Assembly (NCBI GenBank): GCA_963556255.1
Contig: OY744606.1
Coordinates: forward strand, 1,940,673-2,004,672
Length of the DNA: 64,000 bases
From: Allolobophora icterica
Taxonomy: Eukaryota > Annelida > Clitellata > Crassiclitellata > Lumbricidae
Direction of reading: 5' to 3'
Part shown: positions 12,370-62,948 of the stretch, in pieces
Numbering within the stretch: position 1 is the first letter of the stretch
How the letters are laid out: every line of letters begins with the position of its first letter
Notes under the pieces: model-generated
The model's database searches: none
Seen by the model: only the letters and a program-made list of their open reading frames with translations
Told to the model about the DNA's origin: nothing
Program-made: the position numbers and the translations under genes

Positions 12370-12878
12370 GGCGACGACCTGAAGAAACCACAGGAACTCA
12401 TACGTTGCAATAAGTTCTAATGAAGACTTGCATCAACATCATCATCAGTTCCTGACGCCAGCCATTTGGTGGCGGTTGGTACGTATATATTATCTCCATT
12501 GTTCTCGGTCATTTTGTCAGGTCATTGCTCCTCTTAGTGTTAGTCCAGGTGAATTTATGTCCTCGTTTATATTGTGTTCGCCTATACAGCGCAGTTTAGA
12601 CCCACCTTTGTTTCTTTTTCCTTCTAATCTTTAAAGACTAATTTATGACTATTATCCAATAATGATTTCGCCATATTCTGATCTATTGCGATTGTTAATA
12701 AATGAGTGAAAAATAAAAGAACGATGACTTCGAAAGCGCCATCCTCTCAAGAGACCACTATCTTAATTAGATGAACTCTGTATTGTCATTCTAAATGGAA
12801 GCTTCTATAGTGCCTATCATAATGCACACGCTGTCAAAATCAAAAAGAAAGAGCCAGCTCCTCCTAAGTTATACTAGG

Positions 12879-13310
12879 TGTCGCGGTCGACTCCTTCGAT
12901 CGCAACGACGAACCAACGAAGGAACTATTAAAAGATCTTTATTTAAAAATAAAGTCGATTAAGTGTAGAGTAAGTCAACTCGTCTATCAAATATCACAAT
13001 CGTAGACAGCACACAGGTTGGCTGGTCTCGATTGAACGTTATACGATCAATGTTTCAACGTTTACAAATCTTCGTCAAAAAGCCCTTAATGTACATCAGG
13101 TCTATCTTATATAGAGTTCTCCCGGATTCCAGAACGTTCTGTGACGTCACTGTACTTTTCCCTGGAAAGTCCTACTGAACACGTATATCCTTGTTGCATG
13201 CACCGAATTAATGTTGACAGCTTGCTGCAGAATTTTCCGTGCGTTGTAAACAAGCTTGTTGACACGTCGGTTTTCTTCCCTTGATGCATGCACCCGCGTA
13301 GACCACGACA
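12879..13310 (-). repeat. 3' LTR of the gypsy element
   Basis: 432 bp. On the minus strand it carries a TATATAAG box (13106-13113) and an AATAAA signal (12938-12943). It matches the other LTR except at 13182. Short frames inside it are shadows. Confidence 0.95.
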
Positions 13311-13326
13311 TTCCCTCCGCCCTCAG
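13311..13326 (-). promoter_or_regulatory. Polypurine tract
   Basis: On the minus strand GAGGGCGGAGGGAA abuts the 3' LTR, the expected position and composition of the plus-strand DNA primer. Confidence 0.8.
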
Positions 13327-13504
13327 ATGATGACACGTCTTCAGCACCATCCCGAACGGGTCATCACGATCAAGCCGGGCCTCCAGACTCCATCTCGACA
13401 CAGCATATACAAACAAAACAAAACACATCAGTTAGTCAATTTATCCACACAATTTGCGGGCTCGATCCTTGTGTGTCGGGCCATTCCCCCCTTCACCATC
13501 CGAG

Positions 13505-16500
13505 TCACAACCGAGAGAGGAAATCAGCCACCGTGTTTTGACGTCCAGGACGATATCGAAAGTCCACGTTAAACTCTTGCAATGCTAACGCCCAACGAGT
13601 CAGTTTCGCACTCTTAGGGCTTGCATCTGTGAGATAAGACAAAGGATTATGATCTGAATAAATGATTATCTTTGATAAGAATATCCATGACTTGAATCGT
13701 TTAAGTGCCCAAATTACTGCGAAAGCCTCTCTCTCAATTGTAGACCAATGCATCTGTGTATCTGTAAGTTTAAGGCTAGCAAAAGCAATTGGTTTTTCTT
13801 GACCTTCTTCGGTCCACTGAAACAAGCAACACCCGACCGCGGTGGCACTTGCGTCAACACTTAAACCAAATTCCTTAGTGAAATCAATGGTATGCAACTG
13901 TGTAGCTTTACTGAGATCATCCTTTAACTTATCTAGTGCTTCTTGATGCTTTTGCTCCCAAGGCACCTTCGTAGGTATGTTATCTCGTGTCAAATCAGTT
14001 ATTATCCGTGCTTTTTCAGCTAAAGCAGGTATAAAATTTCGAAAGTAACTGAAAAAACCCATAACCTTTCTAACTTCTTTCTTTGTTGTTGGAGGATGGA
14101 TATCATTGATCGTAGCGATCTTACCTGGATCAGGTTCAATACAACCTGACCCTACTATATGGCCAACAAACTTTATTTTGTTTTGTGCAAAATTACATTT
14201 TCTTAAATTCAAAGTGAGTCCTGCTTCCTCAATAGTTTGCAAGAATTTCTCTAGATGTTCTAAATGGTCATTCCAATTCATTGAAACCACTGCCATATCA
14301 TCGACGAATGGTTCGGTAAAACTTCGCACTGGATGTAAAACTTGGGTCATAGCACGAATAAAGGTATTGCTAGCGGACTTGAGTCCAAACGGCATTCTTG
14401 TGAACTCAAAAAGTCCTGCATCACATACGAATGCCGTAAGCCATCGATGTTCTTTCCGAACTGGAATTTGCCAATACCCCGATTTCGCGTCGAAAACACT
14501 AATAAACTTTGCCCGTCCCACCTTTTGTAAGACGTCAGCAATGTCTGGGGTCGGGTAACAATCACCTAGAGAATATTTGTTAACATGGCGATAATCAATT
14601 GCCAATCGAACGCCATTTTGACCTTTGGGTCCCTTTAAAACGCAAACTACCGGACTGGCCATTTCACTTTTCGATGGTCGAATGATGTCTAATGCCAACA
14701 TTTCTTCTATCTGGCGTTGTACTTCAGGTTTAAGTAGCTCAGGTACTTTATATGCCCTTAAACGCTTAGGAGTGAAATCATGAGTTATCTTAATTTCATG
14801 TTCTAATACTGGACAATACCCAGGCTTATCCACAAATACTGCCGAGTGCCGATCCAAAACTTCAAAAAGTTGCTTCTGTTCCTCTTGCGAAAGATGCGCT
14901 ATAATCAGAGGATCAATTCGCTTACTCGGGCTTATTTGTTCACGTTCTTCCTGATCTACAACCTCTACTATACCAAATTCTTCATCTTGATCAACAATTA
15001 CTGAACAGCTATTGATCATCGCTTGTTCGAGTCGTTCATGGTATCGCTTGATCTTATTTGCGTGTAAATGTCTTTGTTTTCCCTCTATTTCTACTATATA
15101 AGAATATGGGGATTTAACCTTGACTACGGTAGCAGGTCCTTGCCATCGACTATAAAATTTAGAACTACCAAAATCTGGTGCTAATACTGCTACTTTATCT
15201 CCAACTTCGTATTTTCTGTCAGTACTACGCAAGTTATAATAATCTGCATACCGCTTGGTTTCTATATCACTATAGTAATCTGCATAAACTTTCGCGAATT
15301 CGAGGTTTTCCTTCAGTGATTGGAGATACTCTTCGGGTGATTTACCTAAGTTAAGAGGTACTTTTCGTTCGCCAGCCCACGATTCCTTCAACACACTAAG
15401 TGGACCCCGAGGAAGAGTTCCATAAACCATAGTGAATGGCGAAATATGAGTCGTGCCTGAAGGTTTTTCTCTAAGGCTCCACAGAACAAACGGTAACAAT
15501 TGGTGCCATCCACGAGGATCAGATTGAGCAAGCTTAAAGATCATGGTTTTCAAGCTTTGGTTGCATCTTTCAACCAATCCAGCTGCCTCAGGATGTCCAG
15601 GGGTATTAAATCTGGGACTACAACCCATTCGCCGCAAGAATTCTTTCGTCAAACGACTGGTAAAGTTGGTACCACAATCAGAACTGATGATCCTTGGAAT
15701 AGAAAAAGTTGTAAAAACTTGCAACAGAGCTTCACAAACTCCCTTTGCATTCAGCGATCTAAGAGGATACGCCATCGGCCAACGAGAAAATTTGTCCACC
15801 AGAACCAGAGCATAATTGTACTGGGGTTTCGATTGGTTGGATTCTCCAGTCACTACCATAGGGCCAATACAATCCATATTTAGATGGTTAAAACAGAGTT
15901 CATCCGCCCTCGGAATAGGAGTGATCGGGACTCGATCTGCCACTTTAACTGGAGTTCTTAGTTGACAAATTTGACAAGACGCACAATATTCGCGAATCCT
16001 CTCATCCATTCTTGGAAACCAAAAGTTTAATTTGATCCTGGCTCTCGTTGCCTTAAAAGCCATGTGCCCAGCACATGGGGCATCGTGTGCTACTCGCAAG
16101 ACAACCTCGATTCTATCTTCCGGTAAACATAATTGATTAACCTTATGTCCCATAATTTCCCCTTTGTGGTACAGGAGGTTATTATCTATAAAGAAATTAT
16201 TTTTATTCTGTCTCGCTTGTTGCCAGCAAGATATAAGATTGTGACAATTCTGTTGCTCACGCAATAAAGTATCATTATTCGCTACTCCCTCATCAGACTT
16301 GAACTCTGTTGACTCAACATCAAGAAAATTATCTGAATCATCAACTAGTTGCTCCTGAGAATATTCATTCACTTCTGACGGCAAGGATTCGTTGCTGTTA
16401 CTTTTCTCGATATTAACTTCTAAGTTATCTTCTTCTGCCCCTTTATTTATTTGAACACATCGATCTACGCCAGCTACCATCACTACATATTGCGAACTAT

Positions 16501-18421
16501 CCCTTAATAGGTCCACAACATGGGGTGTCAGAATAACCCGTTCATTTAGTTCAGGGACTGCAGCGAACATGACGCACAAAGATGGCGCAATGTTTGTCGT
16601 TCCTTCCATTGAATTAGCTAATTTCATTTGTAGGTATACTACATCTGCCTTACATCCTTCTCCATGAAAACCAATTATATTAATCCGTTTAATCACGGGT
16701 AAGTTTAGTGACTCAATTAATTTCTTATCAATACAACAAATTTCTGCTCCTGAATCAGATAATGCTGGCTGAGAAGGGAGATCTTCAATCTGTACATTGA
16801 TATACGACCTCTCGTGTAATCCATCAATACTATTCTCGTATACCCTTACAGCAGTTTCCAACCCTATTGGTTTAGAATTATCCAATAAATTCCCTTGCTT
16901 TACTTGTTCAGGTATCTCATGCAACACGTTGACCTTCTCAACACATGAGTCGATCACTTCTTCAGTTGGGTTCCCAAATATACAAGTACTCACCTTTTTA
17001 GAATTTGGTTTGGTCTGGCACTCCCTTGCCATATGACCCTTCTGATGACATAGGAAACAGAGACCCTTTACCTTGGCCTCCTCCTGAGACACCCTCGCAC
17101 CTATCTTGGCTTCACCCCTTATTTCCGGTTTGGGAGACTTGGGTTGAGCTGTCTGGTTATTGACTTGAACATGTGGTTGACCTTTCGTCCAATTGTTATA
17201 CTTCGGTGTCGGATGACTACGGCATACTAAGTCATTCCCACCATCATGCGACGCTACATAAATGTCAGCCGCATTAGCTATGTCTTCACAGCTCAACCAC
17301 TCCTCTTTTTCTTGGGCCAAGATATAATCTAAACAAGCCTTCGACAAGGACTCCTTAAGCCGATCCGCAACCAATAAACTTACAAGTTTATCAAACTCAT
17401 CAGTTATTTTTCTACTTTTCAAATAATACATAAGAGCCACACGCAATTTGGATGAATAGATCGTAAATGATTCGTCCGATGCTTTGTGCAACGACCAAAA
17501 TCGGGCTCTAAGATTTGAAGGGCTTATCTTAAACTCCCTTAGCAAAAACTCCTTCAGGAATTTGTAGTCATGGAGCTGTGCCTCAGTAAGGCGCATGGTT
17601 AATGCCTTAGCTCTTTCACTTAAAATGGCTAGCAATAATTTTGCTCTAACATCTTCATCCACCTCATACACATTAAACAAACCATCCAAGTGATCAAAGA
17701 AACCTGGAATTTCTATAGGGTCGGAAGGAAATTTCCAAAGAATATTCTTGAGGGCATCACTATAACGCTTAGTACGACTTGCTAAAGAATCTCTAACATT
17801 TCGTTCTTCCTGCTTTTCCTTCCTCTCCCTTTCTTCTTTCTCTTTCCGTTCCTTCTTTTCTCTTTCTTCTTTCTCTTTCCGTTCCTTCTTTTCTTCCTCT
17901 CTCCTCTTTTCCTCCCTTTCTTCCTTCTCCTTCCGTTCCTCCCTTTCTCTTTCTTCCTTCTCCTTCCGTTCCTCCCTTTCTCTTTCTTCCTTCTCCTTCC
18001 GTTCCTCCCTTTCTCTTTCTTCCTTCTCCTTCCGTTCCTCCCTTTCTCTTCCTTCCTTCTCCTTCCGTTCCTCCCTTTCTCTTTCTTCCTTCTCCCTTTG
18101 TTCTTTCTTTTCTTCCTCTCTCCTCTTTTCCTCCCTTTCTTCCTTCTCCTTCCGTTCCTCCCTTTGTTCTTCATATTTACGGATTTCGAACTCCAGACGG
18201 CGCTTCTGCAGCTCGTAATCCACTCCTGTTGGAGATATTGGACTACCCTTAAATTCCTCTTCCTCTTTTCCAATCTCCATGGCCCATTCTTCCATTAATT
18301 GATTTCGATCCCATGACATAACATCATCTTCGTCCCTTCCTGCCTTCATAAGATACACCCTAATGCGCTCAGACGACATTTTGCGAATATTCGCTTGCAT
18401 CTCTGTTGTCAACGCTTCCAT
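13505..18421 (-). CDS. gag-pol: Gag-Pol polyprotein, Ty3/gypsy (Gmr1-like order)
   Basis: One 1638-residue frame. Residues ~78-208 are an extreme Glu/Lys/Arg coiled-coil with repeated EREERKEKEE units. A retrotransposon gag capsid region follows (~214-390) and then a CCHC zinc knuckle (CFLCHQKGHMAREC, ~452-465). The aspartic protease has a DSGA motif near 555. The integrase comes next: an HHCC finger (~774-818), the catalytic triad in MDCIGP (~848), SSDCGTNF (~914) and GLVERCN (~950), and a GPY/F module (~1090-1130). Reverse transcriptase follows (~1227-1450, FVDD near 1372), and RNase H is last (SVDASATAVG ~1520, IEREAFA ~1562, YSDHNPL ~1590). Integrase before reverse transcriptase is reversed from normal gypsy elements. 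All catalytic motifs are present, so the element looks competent. Confidence 0.96.
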   Translation of the reverse strand: MEALTTEMQANIRKMSSERIRVYLMKAGRDEDDVMSWDRNQLMEEWAMEIGKEEEEFKGSPISPTGVDYELQKRRLEFEIRKYEEQREERKEKEEREEKRREEEKKEQREKEEREREERKEKEGREREERKEKEEREREERKEKEEREREERKEKEEREREERKEKEEREEKRREEEKKERKEKEEREKKERKEKEERERKEKQEERNVRDSLASRTKRYSDALKNILWKFPSDPIEIPGFFDHLDGLFNVYEVDEDVRAKLLLAILSERAKALTMRLTEAQLHDYKFLKEFLLREFKISPSNLRARFWSLHKASDESFTIYSSKLRVALMYYLKSRKITDEFDKLVSLLVADRLKESLSKACLDYILAQEKEEWLSCEDIANAADIYVASHDGGNDLVCRSHPTPKYNNWTKGQPHVQVNNQTAQPKSPKPEIRGEAKIGARVSQEEAKVKGLCFLCHQKGHMARECQTKPNSKKVSTCIFGNPTEEVIDSCVEKVNVLHEIPEQVKQGNLLDNSKPIGLETAVRVYENSIDGLHERSYINVQIEDLPSQPALSDSGAEICCIDKKLIESLNLPVIKRINIIGFHGEGCKADVVYLQMKLANSMEGTTNIAPSLCVMFAAVPELNERVILTPHVVDLLRDSSQYVVMVAGVDRCVQINKGAEEDNLEVNIEKSNSNESLPSEVNEYSQEQLVDDSDNFLDVESTEFKSDEGVANNDTLLREQQNCHNLISCWQQARQNKNNFFIDNNLLYHKGEIMGHKVNQLCLPEDRIEVVLRVAHDAPCAGHMAFKATRARIKLNFWFPRMDERIREYCASCQICQLRTPVKVADRVPITPIPRADELCFNHLNMDCIGPMVVTGESNQSKPQYNYALVLVDKFSRWPMAYPLRSLNAKGVCEALLQVFTTFSIPRIISSDCGTNFTSRLTKEFLRRMGCSPRFNTPGHPEAAGLVERCNQSLKTMIFKLAQSDPRGWHQLLPFVLWSLREKPSGTTHISPFTMVYGTLPRGPLSVLKESWAGERKVPLNLGKSPEEYLQSLKENLEFAKVYADYYSDIETKRYADYYNLRSTDRKYEVGDKVAVLAPDFGSSKFYSRWQGPATVVKVKSPYSYIVEIEGKQRHLHANKIKRYHERLEQAMINSCSVIVDQDEEFGIVEVVDQEEREQISPSKRIDPLIIAHLSQEEQKQLFEVLDRHSAVFVDKPGYCPVLEHEIKITHDFTPKRLRAYKVPELLKPEVQRQIEEMLALDIIRPSKSEMASPVVCVLKGPKGQNGVRLAIDYRHVNKYSLGDCYPTPDIADVLQKVGRAKFISVFDAKSGYWQIPVRKEHRWLTAFVCDAGLFEFTRMPFGLKSASNTFIRAMTQVLHPVRSFTEPFVDDMAVVSMNWNDHLEHLEKFLQTIEEAGLTLNLRKCNFAQNKIKFVGHIVGSGCIEPDPGKIATINDIHPPTTKKEVRKVMGFFSYFRNFIPALAEKARIITDLTRDNIPTKVPWEQKHQEALDKLKDDLSKATQLHTIDFTKEFGLSVDASATAVGCCLFQWTEEGQEKPIAFASLKLTDTQMHWSTIEREAFAVIWALKRFKSWIFLSKIIIYSDHNPLSYLTDASPKSAKLTRWALALQEFNVDFRYRPGRQNTVADFLSRL

Positions 18422-18914
18422 TTTTACAAACAGTCAGTCAACAACAACAAAAAACAGACACCACGCGGCAAACCCGCCACACAAAAGGAAAATTCCACAA
18501 CCCAAAGTGCAACTATGCAGTATCCAAAGAAGTATACTCGCCAAGTACGCAAAAACTATACAAGCTCACGCAAGTCTGGCCTCGATCACAACAATGGATC
18601 AAATTTCAAAGAAATAATCAGCAGATATTGAAAGAGAAATAATGGCTGCCTCCCACTCGGCTGCAACTCCACTCTCTTTTCTCCTTCTCAGCCACGACAA
18701 CACCTAGGATCTTACCCGTATGTTGACTGCTGTCTTCTGCTGTCTCAGCCGAACGACGCACTTCGTCCGTCCGACTGTCGTATGCCGATTCACCCGTCTC
18801 CCACGGTAGAAAGGCGTCTCGATCCGCTCGCTGTCTGGAACAGACCGTCTCTTGATCCTCCGGGTTGACTCCTTCCTCCGCCGGCTCGCGTCTTCTTCAC
18901 CGGATCCAACACCG

Positions 18915-18935
18915 ATGATTCCACCGCTGCCACCA
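18915..18935 (-). promoter_or_regulatory. Primer binding site candidate
   Basis: Four bases inside the 5' LTR, the minus strand reads TGGTGGCAGCGGTGG. This starts with TGG, as expected for the complement of a tRNA 3' CCA end. I cannot name the tRNA. Confidence 0.6.
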
Positions 18936-18939
18936 ATAA

Positions 18940-19371
18940 TGTCGCGGTCGACTCCTTCGATCGCAACGACGAACCAACGAAGGAACTATTAAAAGATCTT
19001 TATTTAAAAATAAAGTCGATTAAGTGTAGAGTAAGTCAACTCGTCTATCAAATATCACAATCGTAGACAGCACACAGGTTGGCTGGTCTCGATTGAACGT
19101 TATACGATCAATGTTTCAACGTTTACAAATCTTCGTCAAAAAGCCCTTAATGTACATCAGGTCTATCTTATATAGAGTTCTCCCGGATTCCAGAACGTTC
19201 TGTGACGTCACTGTACTTTTCCCTGGAAAGTCCTACTGAACATGTATATCCTTGTTGCATGCACCGAATTAATGTTGACAGCTTGCTGCAGAATTTTCCG
19301 TGCGTTGTAAACAAGCTTGTTGACACGTCGGTTTTCTTCCCTTGATGCATGCACCCGCGTAGACCACGACA
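18940..19371 (-). repeat. 5' LTR of the gypsy element
   Basis: 432 bp, matching 12879-13310 except T for C at 19243. It has the same TATATAAG on the minus strand (19167-19174), about 750 bp upstream of the polyprotein ATG. The leader between LTR and ATG (18422-18939) holds no supported gene. Confidence 0.95.
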
Positions 19372-19429
19372 CTAGGTCTACTTCAACCATCATTTAAAGT
19401 TGCGGCGAAGACAATGCAAGAAGGACAAA

Positions 19430-48025: not shown

Positions 48026-62948
<14,923 letters not shown>

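Follow-up and report, generated by a model that had tools for sequence, protein, structure and literature searches.

The Gmr1 clade of Ty3/gypsy retrotransposons was reportedly first described in deuterostomes, judging from the title of the paper by Goodwin and Poulter of 2002. Its members are gypsy elements whose integrase lies upstream of the reverse transcriptase (RT) (PMC8220671, PMC6238403, PMC3587641), an arrangement cited as the exception among gypsy elements (PMC6238403). Here we report that a 64,000-nucleotide stretch of the genome of the earthworm Allolobophora icterica (assembly GCA_963556255.1, contig OY744606.1, positions 1,940,673 to 2,004,672 of the forward strand; the whole stretch is called the window below) very probably holds a full-length, autonomous-looking Gmr1-type Ty3/gypsy retrotransposon that belongs to a recent burst.

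Among protostomes, the Gmr1 elements of crustaceans were called the first (PMC3587641), and in the tubeworm Lamellibrachia luymesi the Gmr1 family LGF3, with fewer than 25 elements, was placed by trees of RT, RNase H and integrase (PMC8220671). In a survey of polychaetes the Gmr1 clade was not recovered (PMC8556966). An earthworm genome paper assigns 11.44% of the genome to long terminal repeat (LTR) elements, and the words gypsy and Gmr1 are absent from its available part (PMC12130307); among the matches listed in our literature search for Gmr1 in annelids, no paper was on earthworms by its title. The initial annotation of the window, a model's reading of the letters, had described the clade as first found in deuterostomes, which is right, and protostome members had already been published (PMC3587641, PMC8220671). 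The earthworm element is a protostome case and a new member of a known Gmr1 kind, and the observation itself is confirmed. By description, it has an annelid host in common with LGF3 (PMC8220671).

Results and Discussion

A complete Ty3/gypsy element with integrase ahead of reverse transcriptase

The element occupies positions 12874-19376 of the window on the minus strand and measures 6493 bp without its target duplication (Table 1). Its two LTRs begin with TGTCG, end with CGACA and are identical at 431 of 432 positions, the sole mismatch being the position pair 13182/19243; since the frame lies on the minus strand, the right-hand repeat is the 5' LTR and the left-hand one the 3' LTR. These TG...CA termini, the primer-binding site, the polypurine tract and a short target duplication of fixed length (5 bp, perfect) are all as in Ty3/gypsy elements (Metaviridae). 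A single 1638-codon frame, read from 18421 to 13505, encodes in turn gag, CCHC, protease, integrase, RT and RNase H, and its length and motifs rule out a chance open frame. Pfam searches with overlapping pieces of the protein matched, in order, Integrase_H2C2 (5e-17), rve (2e-15), RVT_1 (3e-28) and RT_RNaseH (2e-33); matches to CCHC and protease families, positioned ahead of the integrase, were weak and below the curated cut-offs. By regular expression, we located CCHC at amino acid (aa) 455, DSGA at aa 556, HHCC from aa 779, the first integrase aspartate within LNMDCIG from aa 847, D35E from aa 915, WQGP at aa 1093, which we take to be part of the GPY/F module, and FVDD at aa 1372. The boundaries in the initial annotation proved exact to the base, and its single LTR difference with a perfect 5-bp duplication, its domain order and its intact motifs (DSGA, HHCC, DDE, GPY/F and FVDD) were borne out by LTR alignment, Pfam and motif searches; the frame that it placed at 13505-18421 is also right, on a strand, the minus strand, about which it was silent.

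Integrase_H2C2 and rve are gypsy and retroviral domain types. The solved structures nearest to the RT are Ty3 4ol8 (2e-33) and 7q5b, and for the integrase foamy-virus entries score above Ty3. Judged by the Pfam matches and by Ty3 as the nearest solved RT, neither enzyme is of the copia type: the element resembles Ty1/copia in its integrase-before-RT order (PMC6238403) but differs from it in an RT closest to Ty3 and in an integrase that matches Integrase_H2C2 and rve. With Gmr1 elements it shares the integrase upstream of the RT and the single gag-pol frame, and its 1638 aa in 6493 bp agree with the approximately 1500-1640 aa in 6.1-6.5 kb expected of them. In fish, Gmr elements measure 6058-6465 bp, their LTRs 337-518 bp and their single frame 1506-1634 aa (PMC11117352, Table 2), so that both lengths found here lie just above the longest given. 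The differences from the Gmr1 clade are the earthworm host and a length-variable charged repeat in Gag.

Sister copies and the age of the family

The search for the LTR over the 1.118-Gb genome scored 40 matches of 1039 candidates, all of them 100% identical after rounding, which comprise, beyond the window pair, 15 pairs and 8 single LTRs. In all 15 other pairs the two LTRs differ at 0/432 positions and the 5-bp duplication is intact and perfect, so the family has moved recently. The LTRs of these sister copies differ from the 5' LTR of the window by 2-4 bases, and all 30 of them carry the base of the window 3' LTR at the mismatched position; the change is thus private to the 5' LTR, at 19243. 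One change in 432 corresponds to 0.0023 per site (95% range 0.00006-0.013), a value whose dating hangs on the rate, and is compatible with a very recent insertion.

In view of this burst, present-day movement of the window element is likely. It is nonetheless a substantial possibility, not far short of an even chance, that this intact copy is silenced or otherwise dead and so a relic of recent age, not a mover: it is known from its genome sequence, and it has one LTR change against none in the 15 other pairs. What speaks for a mobile copy is that every motif checked is present and that so small a divergence fits a very recent insertion.

At one sister locus (L077/L078, G000:C1:62219500-62231980; loci of the host genome are numbered with the prefix L), the two LTRs stand 11.9 kb apart with a matching duplication, and the gag gene runs into other sequence, probably a further insertion within that copy.

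Domain order in relatives and in the host genome

Of 1235 relatives found by a protein search with the pol part of the element, the best 120 were listed, the top one being 97% identical over the 450 residues scored; the integrase precedes the RT in 94/94 of those listed that show both domains. Searching the host genome with the integrase zinc domain scored 150 of 5309 candidates. RT was found downstream of the integrase in all 29 loci having RT among 30 inspected; of 20 host stretches of about 6 kb picked by score class, 19 show both domains, all integrase-first, with integrases 28-44% identical to that of the window element. These stretches and loci overlap partly in place. In 24/24 pairs matched by eye between the host match lists, the zinc domain lies approximately 2.2-2.4 kb upstream of the RNase H, a one-sided pairing, as the zinc domain of the conventional element L092 is absent from the zinc-domain list. 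L092 has homologous RT, RNase H and integrase and resides in the same genome, but its order is RT-RNase H-integrase, as it is in 121/121 of L092 and its 120 listed relatives, and it lies on the other side of a deep split in the trees described below. The notion that all gypsy elements of this host are integrase-first was accordingly rejected. Frames of about 1406 aa, taken to be the L092 family, are frequent in the host RNase H list. Scans of IMG/VR viral contigs with the window RT and with an RT-RNase H alignment gave pattern matches, among which no relative was confirmed.

For phylogenetic analysis, we drew on a pool of 95 integrase-first and 120 conventional rows having all three domains, and used 35 integrase-first rows (the window, 13 host rows and every fourth relative) and 25 conventional ones (L092 and every fifth relative), the latter all from one query and not a full panel of gypsy clades. 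A single branch separates the 35 from the 25, with support of 100/100 in the RT plus RNase H tree and 100/97 in the integrase tree; this split is present in all 200 bootstrap trees of each, and in one run the bootstrap had not fully converged. When yeast Ty3 was placed with the conventional rows in a quick tree of the RT alone, a single order change was again enough, with a weaker support of 81. The trees are unrooted and do not give the direction of the change. The integrase-first side holds at least three deep groups from the host genome: one with the window family, L041 and all 21 sampled relatives; a second with L044, L045, L048, L055 and L057 (support 93/67 by integrase and 100/100 by RT plus RNase H); and a third with L039, L040, L047, L050, L051, L054 and L056.

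The initial annotation had named, as outcomes that would speak against it, a placement of RT and integrase among conventional gypsy elements and an assembly chimera. Both trees part the element from the sampled conventional gypsy elements, and its order recurs in 94/94 relatives and in 19/19 elements of the same genome with both domains; since the same order is seen across relatives and in-genome elements, the element is no assembly chimera. Its description as Gmr1-type agrees with the order and the trees, and nesting within the published Gmr1 clade is argued from structure and literature, not from a tree with a named Gmr1 sequence such as those of Gadus and Ciona. A separate animal lineage outside that clade, which reached the integrase-first order independently, is improbable: the make-up of the trees, where no named Gmr1 sequence was included, and the three deep groups of the host leave some room for it, but all 35 integrase-first rows fall on one side of a single branch in both trees, so that one origin is enough, and element size, LTR length and the single frame are near those of published Gmr elements. 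A conventional gypsy element with its integrase displaced by assembly error or rare local rearrangement, although the conventional order does occur in this genome and throughout the L092 set, is refuted by the relatives, by the divergent integrase-first elements of the same genome and by the congruence of the two trees.

Several points weigh against a full-length Gmr1-type retrotransposon within a recent burst. The list of sister pairs is ranked by identity to the window LTR and is therefore biased to young copies and silent on the number of old ones. Among the 15 sister copies, gag carries a stop in L061, L073 is frameshifted and L077 interrupted, and the gag start was missed by the search pattern in L071 and L085. 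The trees contain no named Gmr1 sequence, and a single query supplied their conventional rows, to which Ty3 was added in one RT tree. Finally, the interpretation is built on genomic DNA.

A length-variable charged tract in Gag

Ahead of the capsid, Gag contains a charged tract of 11-residue repeats encoded by 33-bp units. Counting the window element, 16 copies were at hand, and we measured the tract in the 12 whose gag and capsid starts were readable in place; L071, L073, L077 and L085 were left out, and L061 was kept though it has a stop in gag. The tract spans 95-157 residues in eight lengths, and the difference is a multiple of 11 residues in 27/66 copy pairs (5 of the 27 by zero), compared with 6 expected for an even spread. 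The flanking 1080 nt, primer site included, differ by 2-10 substitutions per copy pair. Tract length varies between copies (L059-L088 and the window) whose own LTRs are identical within the copy. The simplest source of the changes in repeat number would be slippage or template switching at the 33-bp units while the element is reverse transcribed; ordinary minisatellite mutation may instead be the source.

A capsid was recognised in 71 relatives and host rows, and in 55 of these it is preceded by at least 100 residues. A 60-residue stretch with at least 60% E/K/R/D/Q precedes the capsid in 47/55 and follows it in 0/55. AlphaFold modelled Gag with a helical N-terminal domain, tract helices at residues 68-134 and 141-210 and a helical capsid, at a mean predicted local distance difference test (pLDDT) of 86, with residues 133-140 below 50; at a predicted template modelling score (pTM) of 0.49, the placement of the domains is unsure. 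The capsid region (aa 215-400) had no Pfam match, and Foldseek returned no match at E 0.001 or better and 352 weaker ones, headed by the PNMA2, dArc1 and Copia capsids (E 0.02-0.1). Among the literature matches listed, nothing on a length-variable charged Gag repeat was found by title or abstract start.

Two types of primer-binding site

On the inner side of the 5' LTR, four bases separate it from the primer-binding site; the purine tract adjoins the 3' LTR. Two types of primer site occur among the 16 copies, starting with TGGTGGCAG in 6 and with TGGTGTCAG in 10, with small differences further in. For the first type, the tRNA-Leu 3'-end pattern matches the genome at 48 places and the reversed pattern at 0. 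ARAGORN called one of these loci (L093) as tRNA-Leu, and its 3' end plus CCA pairs with the first 15 bases and at 17/18 positions overall; L094, with the same pattern and also pairing at 17/18, was not called a tRNA by ARAGORN, so the 48 matches are not all tRNA genes. The second type would presumably fit another tRNA-Leu. A tree of the 12 copies, built on 21 variable sites, has no well-supported fork and no firm family structure, and switching of the primer type is therefore not told apart from recombination.

Proposed replication cycle and implications

The sequence shows the LTRs, the target duplications, a primer site, a purine tract, intact motifs in integrase-first order and sister copies that are nearly identical, whereas expression, polyprotein cleavage and present-day movement are inferred. 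The LTR would drive a genomic RNA, from which a single Gag-Pol polyprotein would be made and presumably cut by the DSGA protease. A tRNA-Leu would prime minus-strand synthesis at the primer site, and the purine tract would prime the plus strand; the integrase would then insert the complementary DNA (cDNA), making the 5-bp duplication.

In a more speculative vein, and unlikely to hold as a whole, an integrase-first superclade may have radiated into at least three deep groups in this line of earthworms, with the charged helical Gag spacer as a fast-evolving module, its repeat number reset at almost each copying, and a primer that flips between two tRNA-Leu species. If this were true, each new copy would get a Gag of different reach, the element would keep a natural archive of the errors that reverse transcription makes in an animal, and the length of the Gag spacer would be under selection.

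Beyond its membership of a known kind, the element draws attention by its host, by the breadth of integrase-first groups that share one genome, and by two rapidly changing traits, the Gag repeat and the primer site. With several deep integrase-first groups and a recently expanding family in a single genome, how the swapped order arose and succeeded could be studied in many long-frame copies. The sister copies, nearly identical save for the 33-bp gag repeat and the primer site, offer a gauge of repeat change and primer switching in natural reverse transcription.

Features of the element

Table 1. Coordinates of the retrotransposon and its parts in the window
Feature	Position	Strand	Basis or remark
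Target-site duplication CTAGG, left copy	12874..12878	.	
3' LTR, 432 bp	12879..13310	-	Base of sister copies at 13182
Polypurine tract GAGGGCGGAGGGAA	13311..13324	-	Abuts 3' LTR; named by position and composition
Single gag-pol frame, 1638 aa	13505..18421	-	
RNase H domain, aa 1513-1617	13571..13885	-	PF17917, 2e-33
Reverse transcriptase, aa 1265-1423	14153..14629	-	Pfam and motif (FVDD, aa 1372)
GPY/F-like module region, end of integrase	15017..15199	-	Motif (WQGP, aa 1093); borders set by us
Integrase catalytic core, aa 868-944	15590..15820	-	Pfam rve; first D of DD35E just ahead (LNMDCIG)
Integrase zinc-binding domain HHCC, aa 767-823	15953..16123	-	Pfam and motif
Protease with DSGA, aa 535-610	16592..16819	-	Pfam matches under cut-off, and motif
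CCHC zinc knuckle, aa 454-469	17015..17062	-	18.6 bits, under the 20.8 cut-off; motif
Gag capsid region, aa 215-400	17222..17779	-	No Pfam match; predicted capsid-like fold
Charged helical tract, 11-residue repeats (33 bp)	17780..18199	-	Length-variable between copies
N-terminal helical Gag domain, aa 1-58	18248..18421	-	Recognisable in relatives
Primer-binding site TGGTGGCAGCGGTGG	18921..18935	-	Four bases inside 5' LTR; complementary to tRNA-Leu 3' end
5' LTR, 432 bp	18940..19371	-	Private base at 19243
Target-site duplication CTAGG, right copy	19372..19376	.	

Additional observations

Elsewhere in the genome, three integrase matches of another family (L017, L018 and L019; G000:C4, approximately 2.10-2.11 Mb) follow one another at exact intervals of 5353 bases, as in a tandem array whose elements share LTRs. 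A contig of 28,401 bases (G000:C257, L090) contains a COX1-family frame of 721 aa that is stop-free in the standard code, and perhaps comes from a bacterium living with the worm. Two inverted nuclear copies of mitochondrial COX1 lie on G000:C8 at approximately 61.145-61.148 Mb (L091), and on a contig of 15,328 bases (C328) COX1 reads with the invertebrate mitochondrial code. The named proteins nearest to the latter are those of Eisenia nordenskioldi, Amynthas sp., Polypheretima elongata (96%) and Pontoscolex corethrurus (95%), all of which we take to be earthworms. Within the window, a frame at 62085-62945 ends in the membrane region of a neurotransmitter-gated ion channel and is probably the final exon of a gene for a nicotinic receptor. 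Microsatellites and minisatellites are very dense over the whole of positions 1-64000, with 147 tandem-repeat rows, some of them overlapping.

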